Origin: Arcobacter caeni
GTDB taxonomy: Bacteria; Campylobacterota; Campylobacteria; Campylobacterales; Arcobacteraceae
Direction of reading: 5' to 3'
DNA: 64,000 nucleotides
Assembly: GCF_003063245.1 (NCBI RefSeq)
Contig: NZ_MUXE01000003.1
Coordinates: 124,001-188,000, forward strand
Made by a program: the position numbers and the translations under genes. Numbering within the stretch: position 1 is the first letter of the stretch; each line of letters opens with the position of its first letter. Below are positions 1 through 7,907 of the stretch, piece by piece. The notes beneath the pieces are model-generated. The model saw only the letters and a program-made list of their open reading frames with translations, was not told the origin of the DNA and did no database searches.

Positions 1-2
1 TA

Positions 3-260
3 GTTGTAGGAAGTAATGAACTTGTGATTTCATTATCAAAAGATTCAAAAGTTGTAGAAACAGCAAAAGTAAAAGCAAAGTTTTTTATGCCTGAAATGCC
101 AGGAATGCCTTATATGGAATCTGAGGATAATGCAACTTTTGTTGATGGAATTTATAAAATGAATATTAATATTCCAATGGGTGGAACATGGCAATATCAA
201 TTAAAATTTAAAACAAATGATGGCGTTGTTCATACTGTTAAAGGTAGTGTGAATTTATAA
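3..260 (+). CDS. YtkA/FixH-like domain protein, 5' end cut off by window
   Basis: The frame is open from the first complete codon to the TAA at 258-260, so this is the C-terminal ~85 residues of a gene that begins outside the window; the GTG at 24 is probably not its start. The visible part is a small beta-rich domain with a Met/Pro stretch (MPEMPGMPYM) and an aromatic segment GGTWQYQLKF, which looks like the YtkA-like/FixH family found next to heavy-metal efflux genes. Its stop overlaps the start of the next gene (TAATG), so it is translationally coupled to the TolC-type gene and most likely belongs to the same efflux operon. The Met-rich stretch would suit periplasmic copper handling, which is inference. 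Full length and signal peptide cannot be seen. Confidence 0.6.
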   Translation, partial: VVGSNELVISLSKDSKVVETAKVKAKFFMPEMPGMPYMESEDNATFVDGIYKMNINIPMGGTWQYQLKFKTNDGVVHTVKGSVNL

Positions 261-1450
261 TGTTAAAAATATTACTAAGCACATTTTTTGTGAGTTCACT
301 TTTAAGTGCTGTTACAATTGATGAGTTGGTAAAAAATAGTTTTGAAAAAAACTATGATTTGAAAAGTATAAATAAATCAATAAAAGTAGCAGAAGAACAA
401 ATAAAAGTTTCTAAAAATTGGGAAAATCCAATGCTTGCTTTTAAAGTAAATAATATTGGATTTAATAAACCTTTATCAAATCAAAAAGAGTATGGAGTTG
501 AACTTTCTCAAGTTATTCCTATTGGGAATAAACTTGATATTGAAGAGAATATTGCTATAAAAGATAAAAATATCGAGATATTTAATCTAGAAGATAAAAA
601 ACTGGAGTTGGAATCAAAAATATATGAGTATTCATATAATATTTTGATTTTAGAAAAACGATATAAACTTATAGAAAATTATCAAAAAAACATAGAGAAA
701 CTAGAAGAGTTAAATACTTCTTTGTATAAATACCAAAAAACTTCTTTAAATGAAGTTCTAAAAACAAAAATATCATATTTGGATTTGAAACTTGAACTTG
801 AAAATTTAAAAACAAAAATTGATAATTTATATTTGAATTTAGAACAAATAACATATGAAAAAATCCAAAATATAGATGAATTTCTGAATATAAAAGAGAT
901 AAATAAAACTCAAATAAATCAAGAACTTTTTAATACTCATCCAAAAATAAAAGTGTTAGAAGAAAATAGTTTAAAATACAAAAATATGGCATCTCTTGAA
1001 GAAGCAAAAAAATACTCAAATATAACTTTAAGTGTTGAATATATGCAAAATGATGAACAAGATTATGGAAATTTAACGGTTGGTATTCCACTTCCTTTAT
1101 ATAAAACTGAAAATACAAATGCTTTAAAAGCCAAAATGAACTCAAATGAAACAAACGATAGATTAGGTAGTTATTTGCATAATTTATCTTTGCAAACTGA
1201 TGTTTATTTAAATAATTTAAATCAAAGTGTTAGAAATTATAAATTAATTCAAAAAGAGATAATTCCTCTTAAACAAAAAATCCAAGAAAATATAGAAAAT
1301 TACAATAGTTTTGAGCTGATAAAACCACAAGAAAGCATAGAAAATCTAAATGAATTAATAATTTATGAAACAAAAGCTTTGGATGAAGCTTTGAAATATT
1401 ATGAAAGTTATTCACAACTTTTATATTTTACAAATAAAGGTATAAAATGA
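260..1450 (+). CDS. TolC-family outer-membrane efflux channel (CusC/CzcC-like)
   Basis: A 396-residue protein with a short signal peptide (hydrophobic to about residue 17, ending LLSA) followed by the long helical, Asn/Lys/Glu-rich repeats typical of outer membrane efflux proteins, with a conserved-looking beta segment around VGIPLPLY (residues ~275-282). It should form the outer-membrane exit duct of the tripartite pump encoded with the next two genes. It is somewhat shorter than E. coli CusC, as is common for Campylobacterota members. It starts on the ATG that overlaps the previous stop and its own TGA overlaps the next ATG (ATGA), so the operon is tightly coupled. The substrate cannot be read from this subunit; assignment to metal efflux rests on the CusA-type pump downstream. 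Confidence 0.85.
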   Translation: MLKILLSTFFVSSLLSAVTIDELVKNSFEKNYDLKSINKSIKVAEEQIKVSKNWENPMLAFKVNNIGFNKPLSNQKEYGVELSQVIPIGNKLDIEENIAIKDKNIEIFNLEDKKLELESKIYEYSYNILILEKRYKLIENYQKNIEKLEELNTSLYKYQKTSLNEVLKTKISYLDLKLELENLKTKIDNLYLNLEQITYEKIQNIDEFLNIKEINKTQINQELFNTHPKIKVLEENSLKYKNMASLEEAKKYSNITLSVEYMQNDEQDYGNLTVGIPLPLYKTENTNALKAKMNSNETNDRLGSYLHNLSLQTDVYLNNLNQSVRNYKLIQKEIIPLKQKIQENIENYNSFELIKPQESIENLNELIIYETKALDEALKYYESYSQLLYFTNKGIK

Positions 1451-2451
1451 TTAAAAATATAGTTTTTATCGCCCTACTTTTTAATGGGTTTTTACAAGCA
1501 CAAATTATAGATGCAAAACAGTTATTTAATAAAAAAATGACAAAAGTAACAAAAGAAGAAGTTGTTGTAAACAAAAGTTTTTATGGAATTACAAAAATAG
1601 ATGAATCATCTTTGGTTGATATTGTAAGTAGATTTGATGGATATGTCACAAAACTAAATGCTAATAAAAAATATATGACTATAAAAAAAGGTGAACCTTT
1701 ATATTGGGTATATTCCCAAGAAATTTTAAGTATTCAAAATGAACTTCAAGTTGCAAAAAATTTTAATCAAAATATTTATCAAAGTACATTATCAAAACTT
1801 GATAATTTGGATATTTCAAAAAGTGAACAAGAAAAAATAAAAGCTGGAAAAATAAATTCAAATGGTGCGGTGGTTACTTCTTCTATAAATGGTTTATTAA
1901 TGGAAAAAAATATAAACCAATCAAGTGCTATAAATAAAGGAAATATGCTTTTGCAAATGGCAAGTTTAGACAAAATCTGGTTTATAGCATCTGTTTATCA
2001 AAGTGATTTAGAGTATATAAAAAAAGATAAAGAAGCAAATATAAATATAGATGGAATTAATGAAAAGCTAAATTCGAAAGTAGATTTTGTTTACCCAATT
2101 TTTGATGAAAAAACAAAAACAGTTGATGTTAGATTTGTTTTAGAAAATAAAGATTTAAAACTACTTCCAAGTATGTTTGGAAAAGTTGATATAAGTGTTA
2201 AAAAAGATGTTATGTTGACTCTACCAAAAACAGCAGTTCTAAAAAAAGCGGATAGTTTTTATGTTTTTATAGCTTTAGAAAATGGAGATTTTGAACCTAA
2301 AAAAATAGATGCAAAAAGAATTTCTTCAAACAAATATGAAATAATAGGTGGTTTAAAAGAAAATGATGAAGTTATAAATAACGCCCTATTTTTACTTGAT
2401 TCTGATGCTGTAACAAATGCACTTTATGAATCTGATAAAGAGGATTGGTAA
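1447..2451 (+). CDS. RND efflux periplasmic adaptor subunit (CusB-like)
   Basis: A 334-residue secreted protein (signal peptide about residues 1-19, ending FLQA) with the membrane-fusion-protein layout: a barrel-sandwich half near residues 60-100 (FDGYVTKL, KKGEPLYWVYS), a short helical hairpin around 105-140, the second half (SSINGLLMEKNI, KGNMLLQMA) and the beta-barrel segment DKIWFIASVYQSDL that is characteristic of CusB-type heavy-metal adaptors. It bridges the inner-membrane pump and the outer-membrane channel. It overlaps the upstream gene by 4 bases and ends 2 bases before the ATG of the pump gene. It lacks the long N-terminal metal-binding extension of E. coli CusB; metal delivery might be done by the Met-rich YtkA-like protein instead (inference). 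Confidence 0.85.
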   Translation: MIKNIVFIALLFNGFLQAQIIDAKQLFNKKMTKVTKEEVVVNKSFYGITKIDESSLVDIVSRFDGYVTKLNANKKYMTIKKGEPLYWVYSQEILSIQNELQVAKNFNQNIYQSTLSKLDNLDISKSEQEKIKAGKINSNGAVVTSSINGLLMEKNINQSSAINKGNMLLQMASLDKIWFIASVYQSDLEYIKKDKEANINIDGINEKLNSKVDFVYPIFDEKTKTVDVRFVLENKDLKLLPSMFGKVDISVKKDVMLTLPKTAVLKKADSFYVFIALENGDFEPKKIDAKRISSNKYEIIGGLKENDEVINNALFLLDSDAVTNALYESDKEDW

Positions 2452-2453
2452 TA

Positions 2454-5400
2454 ATGGTTGAAAGTATAATCTCATATAGTATAAGAAACAAATTTTTAGT
2501 ACTATTTTTAATCGCTATTTTAACAATAGCATCTTTTTGGGCTGTAAAAAATACAAATTTGGATGCCCTTCCAGATTTGTCACCTCCTCAAGTTATTCTT
2601 CAAGTTGAATGGAGTAATCAAAGTCCTAAAACTATTGAAGAACAAATATCTTATCCTTTGATTTCGAATTTAATGAGTTTGCCAAATATTCAAACAGTTC
2701 GTGCGATGACATCATTTTCAAGTGCAATGATTTATATTATATTTAAAGATGGAACAGATAATTATGATTCAAGAAGTAGAGTTTTGGAGCAACTTTCAAC
2801 GCTTCAAGGAACATTTCCTGTAGGTTCAAGTGTACAATTAGGTCCTGATGCTTCAGGTGTTGGTTGGGCTTATGAATATGCTTTGAAATCTAATACTAAA
2901 AGTTTAGAAGAATTACGAACTTTACAAGATTATTATTTTAAATATGCGCTTTTGGGTGTTGATGGAGTTAGTGAAATAGCGTCAATTGGTGGATATGTAA
3001 AAAACTATGAGATAACTCTAAATCAAGATAAATTGGTTCAATATGATTTAAATATAAATGAAATAAAAGAGATTATTCAAAAAAACAATAGTGATAACGG
3101 TGGAAGAATTATTTTAGAAAATGGTTATGAACAAATTATCACTGCTCGTGGTTACTTAAAATCTGTAAGTGATATTGAAAATATCACTATTAAAACTCTA
3201 AATAATATCCCATTAAAAATAAAAGATATAGCTGATGTTAATATAACTTCAAAAGATAGACGAGGTATGGCTGAATTAAATGGTCAAGGTGAGACGATAG
3301 GAGGGATTGTAATAGTTCGGCAAGGAGAAAATCCTTATTCAGTTATAAAGGCTGTAAAAGAGAAATTAGCCACATTAAATGTTCCTGATGTAGAAGTTGT
3401 AGAAGTTTATGATAGAAGTTCACTAATAGATAAAGCAATTGATACTTTAAAAGGTACTTTATTTGAAGAATCAATTATTGTAGCTATTATTGCAACGCTA
3501 TTTTTGTTTCATTTTAGATCTGCTTTGATTATTATAATAACTCTTCCAATAACGGTGTTAATTAGCTTTTTACTTATGAAAGCTTTTGGAATTGGCTCAA
3601 ACATTATGAGTTTAGGTGGAATTGCAATAGCAATTGGAGCAATGGTTGATGCAACAATTGTAATGGTTGAAAATGCCCATAAATATCTGCAAGGAAAAGA
3701 AAATATTTCAAATGAAGAAAGAATTGAAATAATCATAAAATCAGCAAAACAAGTAGGTCGTCCAATATTTTTTGCTTTAGTTTTAGTTGTTGTTTCATTT
3801 TTTCCTATTTTTGCATTAACAGGTCAAGAAGGAAGACTTTTTACTCCTTTAGCATTTACAAAATCTTTTGCGATGTTAACGGGAGCTATTTTATCTATCA
3901 CTTTAGTTCCTATTTTGATGATTTTTTTAATTCGTGGCAAAATCATGGCTGAAGATAAAAATATCTTAAATAAGTTTTTTATAAATATATATTCGCCATT
4001 TCTAAAAATGGCTTTGAAATTAAGATATTTAATCGTAGGTATTTATCTTGTTGTAATTGTTTTTGCTTATAGTGTTTATGAAAAACAAAATTGGGAATTT
4101 ATGCCCATGATGAACGAACAAACTTTTATGTATATGCCAGTAACTCCTTATGGAATTAGTATTGATATGGCAAAAGAGTTGGCTTTGAAAACAAATATTG
4201 TAATCAAATCATTTCCAGAAGTACAAACAGCTTTCGCAAAAGTTGGACGAGCTTTAAGTGCTACAGATCCTGCTCCTCTTGCGATGATTGAAACAATAAT
4301 TACATTTAAACCTCAAAATGAGTGGAGAGAGGGAATGACATATAAAAAATTAATGGAAGAAATGAATGAAAAACTTCAAATTCCAGGACTTATAAATTCA
4401 TGGACTTATCCAATACGAGGTCGAATAGATATGCTTTTAACAGGTATTCGGACTCCTTTAGGAATAAAACTTTATGGAAATGAACACAAAACATTAGAAG
4501 AAACAGCAAAACAAATAGAGCAAAAATTAAGAAAATATGAGGGAACTTTATCAGTTTCATCTGATAAAGTAAATTCTGGATATTACTTGAATATTCAAAT
4601 AAATGATGAAATGATTTCAAGATATGGAATAAATAAAAATGATGTTTTAGAAACCATTTCTTTAGGAGTTGGTGGAACTCAAATCTCAACTTTTTTGGAT
4701 AAATTAGAAAGATACCCAATAACTCTAAGATTTGAAGCAAATCAAAGAGAAGATTTAACTGTATTAGAAAATCTTCAAATCAAAACAAATCTAGGTTTTC
4801 AACCTTTACGATTATTTGCAAATCTAAAATATGAAGAAGGACCATCTGTTATATCGTCTGAAAAAGCATTAAATGTAAATTTCATTTATATAACTCCCAA
4901 AGAAAATATTTCTATAAAACAATATAAAGATGAAGCAAACAAATTATTAAAAGAGATAAAGTTACCAAGTGGTTACTATTTTGAATGGTCTGGACAAAGT
5001 GAATATTTAGAACGAGCAATGGAGAGATTACTTTATATTATTCCTTTAACTTTTATGCTTATATTTATTTTGATATATTTAGCTCTAAAAAATATGACAT
5101 ATACATTGATTATATTTTTCACTTTACCATTTGCATTAAGTGGTGGAATAATATATTTAGATTATTTAAATTTTAATATATCAATTGCTGTTGTTGTAGG
5201 ATTTTTAGCCCTTTTAGGAGTTGCCTCTGAAACTTCTATTGTAATGCTTGTTTATTTAAATGAAGCAATGATTGAATTAAAACAAAATTGTTTAAATATA
5301 ACAAAAGAAGAAATAGCAAAAGCTATTTATAAAGGTGCTGTTTTGAGACTTCGTCCAAAACTAATGACTTTGTTTACAATTTTAGGTGGATTAATTCCTA

Positions 5401-5552
5401 TTATGTATATTCACGGGGTTGGAAGTGAAGTTATGCAAAGAATTGCAGCACCAATGATTGGAGGAATGGTTACTTCAACTTTTTTAACTCTTATAATAAT
5501 TCCAGCAATATTTTATATTGTTAGTATAAGAAATAACATTTCTACACAGTAA
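2454..5552 (+). CDS. cusA: CusA-type heavy-metal RND efflux pump (probably Cu(I)/Ag(I))
   Basis: A 1032-residue inner-membrane proton-driven pump of the HME-RND class. I start it at the ATG at 2454, 2 bases after the adaptor stop, not at a TTG 9 bases further upstream. The N terminus begins with a membrane helix after ISYSIRNK and the proton-relay segment GAMVDATIVMVENAH lies in the central membrane block. Met561 (FMYMP), Met611 (PLAMIE) and Met660 (RIDML) fall in the same three motifs, with the same 50- and 49-residue spacing, as the E. coli CusA copper-binding triad M573/M623/M672, so monovalent copper or silver is the best-supported substrate rather than Zn/Co/Cd. Last gene of the tight four-gene run; the next gene has a 48-base gap and a possible promoter of its own. 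Confidence 0.88.
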   Translation: MVESIISYSIRNKFLVLFLIAILTIASFWAVKNTNLDALPDLSPPQVILQVEWSNQSPKTIEEQISYPLISNLMSLPNIQTVRAMTSFSSAMIYIIFKDGTDNYDSRSRVLEQLSTLQGTFPVGSSVQLGPDASGVGWAYEYALKSNTKSLEELRTLQDYYFKYALLGVDGVSEIASIGGYVKNYEITLNQDKLVQYDLNINEIKEIIQKNNSDNGGRIILENGYEQIITARGYLKSVSDIENITIKTLNNIPLKIKDIADVNITSKDRRGMAELNGQGETIGGIVIVRQGENPYSVIKAVKEKLATLNVPDVEVVEVYDRSSLIDKAIDTLKGTLFEESIIVAIIATLFLFHFRSALIIIITLPITVLISFLLMKAFGIGSNIMSLGGIAIAIGAMVDATIVMVENAHKYLQGKENISNEERIEIIIKSAKQVGRPIFFALVLVVVSFFPIFALTGQEGRLFTPLAFTKSFAMLTGAILSITLVPILMIFLIRGKIMAEDKNILNKFFINIYSPFLKMALKLRYLIVGIYLVVIVFAYSVYEKQNWEFMPMMNEQTFMYMPVTPYGISIDMAKELALKTNIVIKSFPEVQTAFAKVGRALSATDPAPLAMIETIITFKPQNEWREGMTYKKLMEEMNEKLQIPGLINSWTYPIRGRIDMLLTGIRTPLGIKLYGNEHKTLEETAKQIEQKLRKYEGTLSVSSDKVNSGYYLNIQINDEMISRYGINKNDVLETISLGVGGTQISTFLDKLERYPITLRFEANQREDLTVLENLQIKTNLGFQPLRLFANLKYEEGPSVISSEKALNVNFIYITPKENISIKQYKDEANKLLKEIKLPSGYYFEWSGQSEYLERAMERLLYIIPLTFMLIFILIYLALKNMTYTLIIFFTLPFALSGGIIYLDYLNFNISIAVVVGFLALLGVASETSIVMLVYLNEAMIELKQNCLNITKEEIAKAIYKGAVLRLRPKLMTLFTILGGLIPIMYIHGVGSEVMQRIAAPMIGGMVTSTFLTLIIIPAIFYIVSIRNNISTQ

Positions 5553-5600
5553 TTAAACAAAAATGATATAGAATTAAGTAATTTAAAAAAAGGATTCAAA

Positions 5601-6179
5601 ATGAAATTCATAACAAAAATAACAAGTGCTTTGATCTTAAGTGTTGGTTTAGCAAATGCCGCTTCTTATAGTGTTGATAATTCACATACAAATGTAGGAT
5701 TTTCTGTGAAACATATGATGATTACAAATGTAAAAGGTGAGTTCAAAACTTATGATGCACAAATTGATTTTGATGAAGCTACAAAAAGTTTTAAAACATT
5801 TAGTGCAAATGTAAATACAGGTTCTGTTGATACTGGAATTGAAAAAAGAGATGACCACTTGATAAGTGATGATTTTTTTGCTTCAGAAAAATTTCCTAAA
5901 ATGACTTTTGTTATGAAATCTTACCAAGCAGATGGTAATGAAGGAAAAATGAAAGGTGATTTAACTATTAGAGGTATAACTAAACCTGTAGTTTTAGAAG
6001 TTGAAGATATTGCTAGTATAAAAGATTTTCAAGGAAATAAAAGAGTTGGCTTTTCTTTAAAAGGAAAAATCAATAGAACAGATTATGATTTAAAATGGAA
6101 TAAAGCCCTTGAATTAGGTGGTGTTGCAGTATCTGAGGAAGTAAAAATTATAGTTGATGTTGAAGCTGTACAAAAATAG
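5601..6179 (+). CDS. YceI family periplasmic lipid-binding-like protein
   Basis: A 192-residue protein with a cleavable signal peptide (about residues 1-20, ending ANA) and the full YceI fold signature: SYSVDNSHTNVGFSVKHMM at the mature N terminus, FFASEKFPKMTF in the middle and the KINRTDYDLKWNKAL near the end. YceI proteins are lipocalin-like and bind long isoprenoid chains such as quinones; the physiological role is often unclear. A sequence resembling a -10 box (TATAGA) and a good ribosome site (AAAGGA) precede the ATG, so it may have its own promoter downstream of the efflux operon. A second YceI paralogue is encoded at 26594-27160 on the other strand under apparent MarR control, so the two copies are likely separately regulated. 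Confidence 0.9.
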   Translation: MKFITKITSALILSVGLANAASYSVDNSHTNVGFSVKHMMITNVKGEFKTYDAQIDFDEATKSFKTFSANVNTGSVDTGIEKRDDHLISDDFFASEKFPKMTFVMKSYQADGNEGKMKGDLTIRGITKPVVLEVEDIASIKDFQGNKRVGFSLKGKINRTDYDLKWNKALELGGVAVSEEVKIIVDVEAVQK

Positions 6180-6181
6180 TA

Positions 6182-6187
6182 TATAAT
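6182..6187 (+). promoter_or_regulatory. Possible -10 box for the Cys-rich repeat gene
   Basis: TATAAT three bases after the stop of the YceI gene and 26 bases before the TTG/ATG of the next gene. It would give a very short leader. AT-richness makes chance matches common here, so this is weak support for separate transcription. Confidence 0.35.
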
Positions 6188-6213
6188 TAAATAAATAAAA
6201 AAAAGGAAACAAA

Positions 6214-6522
6214 TTGAAAATGAAATTATCAGGATTATTATTAGGATTTTTACTTGCAAGTACATTAGCATTTGCAGCACAAGGTTCATGCGGAGCTGGA
6301 AAATGTGGTGCTGAAATGAAAAAAGAGATGAAATGCGCTTGTAATATGAAAGACAAAAAAGATAACAAATGTACTTGTGAAAATAAAGAAAAATGTACAT
6401 GTGATATGAAAAAAGAGATGAAAGGTTCATGCGGAGCTGGGAAATGTGGCGCTGAAATGAAAAAAGAGATGAAAAATGAAATGAAAGGCTCTTGTGGAGC
6501 TGGAAAATGTGGTTCTAAATAA
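6214..6522 (+). CDS. Small secreted Cys/Met/Lys-rich protein with GSCGAGKCG repeats
   Basis: About 102 residues: a signal peptide (to about residue 21, STLAFA), then an extremely biased mature region with 12 cysteines and 8 methionines. GSCGAGKCG occurs three times (start, middle and end), twice followed by AEMKKEMK, and a central block carries CAC, CTC, CTC motifs. No enzyme domain is present. Such a composition points to binding of soft metals, and the location just downstream of a CusA-type pump and a YceI gene supports copper. The AGKCG motif resembles the EGKCG motif of HvfA-type bufferin/oxazolin precursor peptides that MNIO (DUF692) enzymes modify, but no DUF692 gene is visible in this window. 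Start: the TTG at 6214 lies 6 bases after AGGA; the ATG at 6220 is the alternative. Function is inference. Confidence 0.75.
   Translation: MKMKLSGLLLGFLLASTLAFAAQGSCGAGKCGAEMKKEMKCACNMKDKKDNKCTCENKEKCTCDMKKEMKGSCGAGKCGAEMKKEMKNEMKGSCGAGKCGSK
6283..6333 (+). repeat. 51-base direct repeat, copy 1 (coding)
   Basis: Encodes GSCGAGKCGAEMKKEMK. It matches copy 2 at 6424-6474 over 51 bases with only a few third-position differences, so the gene grew by recent internal duplication or is kept similar by recombination. A partial third copy (GSCGAGKCG) follows at about 6487-6513 with more synonymous changes. Confidence 0.85.
6424..6474 (+). repeat. 51-base direct repeat, copy 2 (coding)
   Basis: Second copy of the unit at 6283-6333, in the same frame. 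Differences seen are at wobble positions (GGA to GGG, GGT to GGC), leaving the peptide unchanged. Confidence 0.85.
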
Positions 6523-6526
6523 TCAC

Positions 6527-6554
6527 TTATAAGAGGTCTTTTGACCTCTTATAA
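6527..6554. terminator. Bidirectional hairpin terminator between the Cys-rich gene and the MATE gene
   Basis: Perfect 12-base arms (TTATAAGAGGTC and its complement) with a TTTT loop. It lies just after the stop of the rightward gene and covers the last codons of the leftward MATE gene, so it can serve both convergent units. Confidence 0.75.
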
Positions 6555-7907
6555 ACTCTTATTTAAAATCTCTTTTAATAGTTTATTCGTATAAATATAA
6601 GCAAAAATAGCCGCACTATAAATCATAAATAAAACCCCAACCCATAAATAAATAAAATCAAGTTCAAAATACTTCACTATTAAATATGCAATTATTAATT
6701 TTGCAAAGATCTGTCTATAAATCCCGATATAAAGAATCATCTTAGGTCTTTTTATGGCTTGAAGAGTTGAAATACAAACAAATAAAATAACATAAGCGTA
6801 AAATATCCAAATTTCAATAAGCAAATAACTTATCCCAAAATCAACTACAATTGGATTAGAATCAAATAATGAAATTATTAATCGTCCTAAAATTGTTAAA
6901 AAAATGATTCCAACAGTTGCTATAATAAATCCATATTTAAGAGATACTTTTAAAGTTTCAATCACTCTATCATATTTTTTAGCACCGAAATTATTTGATA
7001 CAAGGGCTAATACAGCAGTACTAAGACCAAGTGCTGGTAAAAGCATAAGTTGTTCAACTCTGTACCCTATTCCATAACCAGCAACTGCTTGAACACCATA
7101 GTGTGAAACAAAATATGTCAAAATTAGTGAACCAATTGCCATTGTAAGCATATTTAGGCTTGATGGTATTCCATGAGAAAAGAATAATTTGTAAACTCTA
7201 AGATTTGGAATAAAATATTCTAATTTTTCAAAATGAATAAGTTTTGTTTGCAGAACTTTGTAAGATAGATAACACATATTTATTACTTGGATTAAAACAG
7301 TAGATAATGCAATTCCTTTTATTCCCATTGCAGGAATAAATAAAAATCCATACATAAATAAAGGATTTAAAACTAAGTTAGCAAAAAAACCAAATATTAA
7401 ACTATTTCTATATGTTTTTGTATCTCCTGTGGCTATCAAAATAGCGTTTAGCGAAAAGTTAAACATAAAAAATATTGCACCAAATAAAATAGGATTTATA
7501 TAATCAAGTGAGATTTGCAAATATTCATCTTTTGCACCTAAAAACATAAAAAGGGAAGGTGCAAAAAAATATCCAATAATACTTAAAATAAGACCAGTAA
7601 AAGGAACAAAAAGAAGTCCTTTATGGGCATAAATTGAAGCTAATTTATATCTCTTTTTACCAAGAGCATTTCCTAAAAGTGCTGTAATTGCTGAACTAAA
7701 ACCATATCCAAAACCAATAATTAAGAAAAAAATCATAAATGATAAAGTTAATGCTGATATTGCTTGTGTTGAAATAAGTCCTGCATAAAAAGTGTCAACA
7801 ACATTGTACATGGTATTAAAAAACATTCCAACACTAGCTGGAATTGCTAATTGTTTTATTAATGTTGGGATATTTTGTGTGGTTAGTGTTTGTGAATTTT
7901 TTCTCAA
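6549..7907 (-). CDS. MATE family multidrug/Na+ or H+ antiporter-type exporter
   Basis: A 452-residue polytopic membrane protein with about 12 hydrophobic helices arranged as two homologous halves. The first half opens with LIKQLAIPASVGMFFNTMYN, the classic MATE N-terminal motif, and the second half has the matching entry near residue 240 (GIPSSLNMLTMAIGS). Length is normal for the family. MATE proteins export cationic drugs, dyes or metabolites in exchange for Na+ or H+; the substrate cannot be deduced. It follows hom by 18 bases in the same direction, so it may be co-transcribed as the last gene of the hom operon, and ends in a shared hairpin. Confidence 0.9.
   Translation of the reverse strand: MRKNSQTLTTQNIPTLIKQLAIPASVGMFFNTMYNVVDTFYAGLISTQAISALTLSFMIFFLIIGFGYGFSSAITALLGNALGKKRYKLASIYAHKGLLFVPFTGLILSIIGYFFAPSLFMFLGAKDEYLQISLDYINPILFGAIFFMFNFSLNAILIATGDTKTYRNSLIFGFFANLVLNPLFMYGFLFIPAMGIKGIALSTVLIQVINMCYLSYKVLQTKLIHFEKLEYFIPNLRVYKLFFSHGIPSSLNMLTMAIGSLILTYFVSHYGVQAVAGYGIGYRVEQLMLLPALGLSTAVLALVSNNFGAKKYDRVIETLKVSLKYGFIIATVGIIFLTILGRLIISLFDSNPIVVDFGISYLLIEIWIFYAYVILFVCISTLQAIKRPKMILYIGIYRQIFAKLIIAYLIVKYFELDFIYLWVGVLFMIYSAAIFAYIYTNKLLKEILNKSL

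Follow-up and report, generated by a model that had tools for sequence, protein, structure and literature searches.

A KCG-repeat peptide of the HvfA family in a Cus-type locus of Arcobacter caeni has probably outlived its modifying enzyme

The window analysed here, a stretch of 64,000 nucleotides of the Arcobacter caeni genome, opens inside the gene of a YtkA-like protein (positions 1 to 260, plus strand; PF13115) that starts 124 nt before the window and is preceded, just outside it, by genes for a response regulator and a histidine kinase. On the same strand follow a CusC-type outer-membrane channel (260 to 1450; PF02321), a CusB/CzcB-type adaptor (1447 to 2451; PF16576, 154 bits), a CusA-type RND pump (2445 to 5552; TIGR00914 of the CusA/CzcA family, 996 bits) and a YceI-family protein (5601 to 6179; PF04264, 151 bits), and then, after a gap of 34 nt, an exported KCG-repeat peptide with an HvfA-family domain (6214 to 6522). 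The same-strand order, response regulator–histidine kinase–YtkA–CusC–CusB–CusA–YceI–peptide, bears out the Cus-type efflux and YceI genes that the initial annotation had placed upstream of the peptide. A gene for a MATE-like transporter (6549 to 7907, minus strand; cluster c1) converges on the peptide; this name, like hom and those of similar flanking clusters, was assigned from sequence by recall and is presumptive. After the peptide gene lies a hairpin (6527 to 6554, listed on the plus strand; -17 kcal/mol, z -6.8) that is terminator-like on both strands and overlaps the end of the MATE-like gene; positions 1 to 6800 hold three terminator-like sites against a shuffle mean of 1.8. We infer that the peptide is co-transcribed with the upstream Cus and YceI genes. 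A promoter-like site at 6160 to 6187 makes separate transcription possible, such sites being no commoner than in shuffled sequence (31 against a mean of 43.7).

The peptide frame comprises 102 codons from a TTG start and coincides exactly with the exported product of about 100 residues, with 12 cysteines, 8 methionines and three GSCGAGKCG repeats, that had been described at 6214 to 6522 on the plus strand. An alternative ATG start lies at 6220; the TTG start is supported by a close relative (G025; codes of this form denote compared genomes), which has ATG at the matching codon. The first 21 residues (6214 to 6276, plus strand) are by inspection a putative Sec signal peptide, cleaved between AFA and AQ. 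A low-confidence AlphaFold model places a helix at residues 6 to 22 and yields no confident fold for the peptide (mean pLDDT 41.8). The mature part, Met- and Lys-rich in composition, holds all of the frame's 12 cysteines, as well as 8 methionines. Its three GSCGAGKCG repeats (6283 to 6309, 6424 to 6450 and 6487 to 6513, plus strand) differ from one another at synonymous sites only, and a CxC-rich insert of the form CAC...CTC...CTC (6334 to 6402, plus strand), metallothionein-like and not of KCG type, separates the first from the second; AGKCG thus occurs three times and EGKCG not once. Two minus-strand open reading frames of 115 and 84 aa overlap the peptide without any sign of being genes, and the reverse complement of the peptide frame, translated in one frame, contains stops. 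The peptide itself is more than a chance open reading frame, because its repeats differ synonymously, all 17 members of the peptide alignment (the A. caeni copy included) match NF050137 at E ≤ 0.1 and the syntenic slot is shared across many genomes.

Kinship with HvfA-type KCG peptides, as initially proposed, finds support at the level of the domain and not of the equivalog: the peptide scores 23.8 bits with the NCBIfam model of the HvfA-family domain (NF050137; cut-off 19.5) and 14.7 bits with the HvfA equivalog model (NF050188; cut-off 95). No Pfam family, metallothionein models included, matches it at E ≤ 1, nor does any PDB sequence at E ≤ 1. Similar to the HvfA, oxazolin and Buf_EGKCG precursors described in excerpts of PMC12452194 and PMC13097082, it is a small Sec-exported peptide (signal by inspection) that passes NF050137. 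It also shares with them the CxxxxC cysteine pair with K-C-G around the second cysteine, as well as a copper context, and its syntenic homologues are accompanied by an MNIO and a DUF2063 protein. Unlike them, it has alanine for glutamate before GKCG and serine for lysine before the first cysteine of the pair, bears extra CxC motifs, and comes from a genome in which no MNIO or DUF2063 partner was found; the literal EGKCG repeats typical of Buf_EGKCG/oxazolin peptides are absent from it, and no gene of the DoxX cluster, frequent but not universal in those systems, adjoins it. The alanine does not set the peptide apart as a type of its own: among 36 peptides that an MNIO accompanies, 131 of the 142 CxxxxC motifs carry it at that place, and the notion of AGKCG as a degenerate or separate motif was rejected on this count. 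Bacterial metallothioneins, presumed to bind metal through plain thiolates, are likewise Cys-rich and carry CxC motifs; unlike them, the peptide is exported, Met- and Lys-rich and homologous to KCG peptides. Its role may by analogy resemble that of CusF, a periplasmic copper binder encoded with CusCBA, to which no sequence relation was found in Pfam or PDB and no confident fold links it. RiPPs of the captophorin type are recognized by a 5-thiooxazole at Lys-Cys, a mass shift of -4 Da for each Cys and absorbance at ~305 nm.

The A. caeni genome (2.4 Mb in 59 contigs, 99.98% complete) lacks any PF05114 (DUF692) match at E ≤ 10, as well as any match at E ≤ 1 to the MNIO of its congener G001. A search for the DUF2063 partner with PF09836 gave nothing at E ≤ 1; this profile is a weak probe here, with G001's own partner scoring 23.8 bits, under the cut-off of 27.2, so the search with the G001 protein itself, which gave no match at E ≤ 0.01, is the stronger test. 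The 12 other enzyme-less peptide genomes of the genus have no MNIO match at E ≤ 1 either, and six of these are assembled in one or two contigs. The description of the peptide as an orphan therefore holds for the whole genome and not for the locus alone. The initial annotation had left two options, an unmodified peptide or one modified by an enzyme encoded elsewhere, and had named as contrary evidence the lack of a DUF692 gene combined with the lack of copper binding or a copper phenotype; the whole-genome search for DUF692 and DUF2063 that it called for found neither. An MNIO elsewhere in this genome is rejected by the PF05114 and G001-MNIO searches, and the lack of the enzyme here and in these six relatives points to enzyme loss and not to a split arrangement; the unmodified peptide is the favoured option. 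HvfA kinship and copper context thus stand from that first interpretation, and the enzyme elsewhere falls.

Across a family sample of 104 genomes, NF050137 matches 51 at E ≤ 0.1, and PF05114 matches 37 at E ≤ 0.01, one of them (G033) weakly, partially and away from the peptide. By pattern, peptides were found in the fetched loci of 53 genomes, including G062, G063 and G075, which NF050137 misses at E ≤ 0.1, and leaving out G048, where the match is a different-looking Cys-rich protein. A full MNIO is present in 36 of the 104 genomes, every one of which carries the peptide in the same cluster; the DUF2063 partner accompanies it in 35 and occurs in no other of the 104 at E ≤ 0.01, the one genome in which it was not seen (G074) having a contig end there. 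Seventeen of the 53 peptide genomes are enzyme-less, namely 13 of the A. caeni genus together with G080, G033, G071 and G085, and G031 is an eighteenth; within the genus, 13 of 15 peptide-bearing genomes lack the enzyme. A common gene order is CusC–CusB–CusA–YceI–peptide–(MNIO–DUF2063)–MATE (reverse)–hom (reverse), with the slot in one of three states: peptide–MNIO–DUF2063–MATE, peptide–MATE, or neither. The MNIO–DUF2063 pair is missing between peptide and MATE in the 13 genus genomes and in G080, G033 and G031, which belong to other genera; the peptide–MATE gap is 22 to 52 nt in 15 of these (the 13 of the genus, G080 and G033). G080 has the order YceI–peptide–MATE, the peptide of G033 directly follows CusA, and G016, of the A. 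caeni genus, has no YceI before the peptide. Of 58 peptide rows, 34 have YceI directly before the peptide, with or without an MNIO, and YceI remains in seven genomes devoid of both, as a frequent partner. The genomes with YceI and neither peptide nor enzyme in the slot are G013, G026, G014, G079, G081, G082 and G053. As G013 and G026, both of the A. caeni genus, keep Cus and YceI without a peptide, the cell can do without it, and losing the enzyme could be a stage on the way to its decay. G033 is counted as enzyme-less at the locus only: its partial PF05114 match (G033:C8:266692-267027; 50 bits, profile positions 109 to 216, in a frame of 266 residues), which is not near the peptide, matches the MNIO protein of G001 at E 2.4e-5.

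That the full cluster is so widespread across the family argues for loss of the enzyme rather than late gain. Two genomes of the A. caeni genus, G001 and G018, have the enzyme. The hom tree, which covers 98 of the 104 genomes (G017, G024, G042, G071, G073 and G074 are missing), nests them within the genus; on it the label 'peptide without enzyme' requires six changes, at least five on well-supported branches, with G031 entered as peptide-less although its peptide is present. The CusA tree (25 rows) gathers 11 enzyme-less genomes in one clade apart from G001 and G018 and groups the enzyme-less G016 with these two, and a three-gene tree of 22 hand-chosen genomes does not reject a single enzyme-less clade of the genus (p 0.48). 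The enzyme may thus have been lost once in the genus, with G001 and G018 having kept or regained it, or it may have been lost several times.

Where the enzyme is gone, the peptide motif persists. KCG is intact in all 56 CxxxxC motifs of 15 peptides from enzyme-less Cus/YceI-type loci, a count that covers motifs with both cysteines, with single KCG remnants (for example in G019 and G029) falling outside it; the motif counts omit eight loci (G071, the first locus of G072, G085, G033, G034b, G034c, G058b and G065b). Three residues before the second cysteine, alanine stands in 33 and threonine in 20 of these 56 motifs, compared with 131 and 1 of the 142 motifs in the 36 enzyme-accompanied peptides, both counts being uncorrected for kinship. 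This position is that of the Glu of EGKCG, with which the MNIO FonB is thought to interact, yet FonBC tolerated single Glu-to-Ala substrate variants, one of the three named having impaired turnover (PMC13097082); the shift from alanine to threonine is therefore no proof of enzyme loss. The pN/pS of the peptide is 0.13 to 0.47 in all nine enzyme-less pairs (overlapping ones, six of which share four genomes) and 0.17 to 0.54 in six enzyme-bearing pairs; that of YceI is 0.05 to 0.26 in 13 testable pairs and lies below that of the peptide in seven of the nine enzyme-less pairs. Full-length open peptide frames are found in the 13 enzyme-less genus genomes and in G080, G033 and G031.

G022, G023 and G025, the nearest relatives, have no CAC/CTC/CTC insert. 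The best match of the insert is a lipoprotein-like tandem paralogue of G019 (79% over 57 nt), and it may come from recombination between tandem copies. In G019 the normal peptide is adjoined by a second one in tandem (L053:6010-6327, minus strand), which has CxC motifs and a signal resembling a lipobox (LTGC). Exported-looking proteins of 171 to 189 aa with 21 cysteines, which combine SCGAGKCG repeats with metallothionein-like CKC/CDC blocks, occur in G058 (L106:4671-5186, minus strand) and G065 (L105:1519-2088, minus strand), both of which encode the usual peptide and an MNIO as well; the G058 protein has no Pfam match at E ≤ 0.01.

With regard to the metal, comparison with solved structures places the pump much nearer to CusA of E. 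coli, at 936 bits, than to ZneA, which is CzcA-like and scores 495 bits. The pump has methionine at all three positions that align with CusA M573, M623 and M672, which we take to be the metal-site methionines; by both marks it suits Cu(I) or Ag(I). The best NCBIfam model for the adaptor is CzcB/NccB (126 bits, cut-off 319), followed by CusB (88 bits, cut-off 390), both under cut-off, and against solved structures CusB (61.8 bits) and ZneB (58.5 bits) are nearly equal. The pump thus favours copper, and the adaptor leaves the metal undecided. In two other genomes, G118 and G174, a KCG peptide has a heavy-metal P-type ATPase as its neighbour. G034, which also has an MNIO, encodes a protein in which a PCuAC copper-chaperone domain (PF04314, 130 bits) is joined to SCGQGKCG repeats, three of them, at the C-terminal end (L103:4978-5574, minus strand), a fusion that directly ties the KCG repeat to copper. 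Together with the two-component genes upstream, the CusA-like pump upholds the copper context initially proposed, and we infer that copper is the metal of the peptide.

Peptides without an MNIO extend beyond the family. In an order sample of 398 genomes, drawn evenly and with the family included, 74 have an NF050137 match at E ≤ 0.01, over cut-off in 66 of them, and 39 have a PF05114 match at E ≤ 1e-10. Outside the family, NF050137 matches 53 genomes (46 over cut-off), 10 of which have an MNIO; no MNIO was detectable in the remaining 43 (36 of the 46 over cut-off), and 14 of the 24 MNIO genomes have no NF050137 match. We inspected 20 loci from 16 of the enzyme-less genomes outside the family (the remaining matches may include false ones): the fetched stretches hold no MNIO, 12 of the 16 genomes have DoxX, a GMC oxidoreductase and/or gluconate-2-dehydrogenase subunit 3 (Gdh3) in the fetched locus, the peptide adjoins a heavy-metal P-type ATPase in two, and 10 of the 22 peptides at these loci bear lipobox-like signals by a loose pattern. 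A set made up of GMC oxidoreductase, Gdh3, DoxX and a protein of ~565 aa with a glutamate-synthase-type domain recurs, in varying combinations, around MNIO-less KCG peptides of other families (L216:2613-7628, L199, L204, L207, L214, L215 and L217). It is possible, and we propose it tentatively, that the KCG-repeat exported peptides of Campylobacterota bind metal for the most part through plain thiolates and can do without modification by an MNIO, the enzyme-less form being the commoner in the order sample. On this view, several enzyme-less lineages add CxC motifs or anchor the peptide as a lipoprotein, and others combine it with a GMC/Gdh3/DoxX module, perhaps a second maturation or redox pathway.

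For the A. caeni peptide itself, the explanation that we hold to be probable is that of an HvfA-type precursor that has outlived its enzyme and serves the Cus pump as an unmodified periplasmic Cu(I) buffer of thiolate and thioether ligands. Under this model, an ancestor would have had a KCG-repeat RiPP precursor, its MNIO and the DUF2063 partner at one locus; the MNIO–DUF2063 pair would have been lost from that locus, and the peptide kept under selection. Exported by Sec to the periplasm, the unmodified and largely disordered peptide probably binds copper unaltered: the paired cysteines of its CxxxxC (SCGAGKCG) repeats would bind Cu(I), with contributions from methionines and, in the A. caeni strain, from the added CxC motifs. 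The peptide would thereby buffer periplasmic copper and hold it for hand-over to the co-encoded Cus pump, free of any modification. Its cysteines, being periplasmic, may form disulfides rather than bind metal.

Several other explanations can be envisioned. The peptide could be a relic, functionless after enzyme loss and drifting towards loss itself, with its apparent conservation reflecting recent loss, as the uneven repeat number, a pN/pS exceeding that of YceI in seven of nine pairs and the seven genomes that keep YceI without peptide or enzyme (G013 and G026, in the same genus, with Cus as well) might suggest. This is quite unlikely, given full-length open frames in the 13 enzyme-less genus genomes and in G080, G033 and G031, a KCG that is unbroken in every one of the 56 motifs counted, pN/pS below 0.5 in nine of nine pairs and the gain of CxC motifs in the A. 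caeni copy. An unmodified buffer for a target other than copper, be it zinc, cadmium, silver, or redox or sulfur stress, is consistent with the adaptor's best NCBIfam model and its near tie between CusB and ZneB, with the DoxX neighbours in other families and with CxC motifs, which bind several soft metals. We regard it as unlikely, as the pump is nearest to CusA with its three aligned methionines, the peptide is Met-rich, and P-type ATPase and PCuAC associations occur elsewhere.

Two further alternatives retain modification of the peptide. A split arrangement, in which an MNIO encoded elsewhere acts on it, could appeal to a plasmid missing from a draft of 59 contigs, but it is extremely improbable in view of the empty searches of a 99.98%-complete genome at E ≤ 10 and of 12 other genus genomes at E ≤ 1, and of the absence of the DUF2063 partner as well. 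A different, unrecognized modifying enzyme is possible because, in the genus, a GMC oxidoreductase is found in 14 of 15 peptide-bearing genomes and in none of 16 peptide-less ones. The best candidate is the GMC–Gdh3 pair: the A. caeni genome has a GMC gene (G000:C7:34866-36497; L219:6070-7722, plus strand) with Gdh3 beside it, away from the peptide, and GMC, Gdh3 and/or DoxX occur in the locus of 12 of the 16 MNIO-less genomes inspected outside the family. We nevertheless consider it very unlikely that this pair or another enzyme modifies the peptide: within the family, GMC is near the peptide in G071, G072 and G085 only; the association over the family is not significant once corrected for the tree (median p 0.22, with G031 entered as peptide-less); the co-occurrence could reflect lifestyle; and GMC enzymes are known for acting on alcohols and sugars.

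The unmodified copper buffer, the reading that we prefer, bears on how such peptides are viewed, since copper peptides modified by an MNIO are assumed to rely on that enzyme. A survey from 2025 counted Buf_EGKCG precursors without an MNIO in 67 of 2,583 complete genomes with such genes; it describes these orphans as rare and their status as unknown, and goes no further than presuming that they need no modification or no longer function (PMC12452194). In the open-licence PMC literature, we found no published report of KCG peptides in Arcobacter, Aliarcobacter or Campylobacterota. For the peptide of the A. caeni genome, the NF050137 label 'oxazolone/thioamide-modified' is probably wrong. The same operon slot, present in related species with the enzyme, without it, or without both enzyme and peptide, represents a natural experiment on the benefit of the modification, and on the return of a RiPP precursor to an ordinary metal-binding protein.
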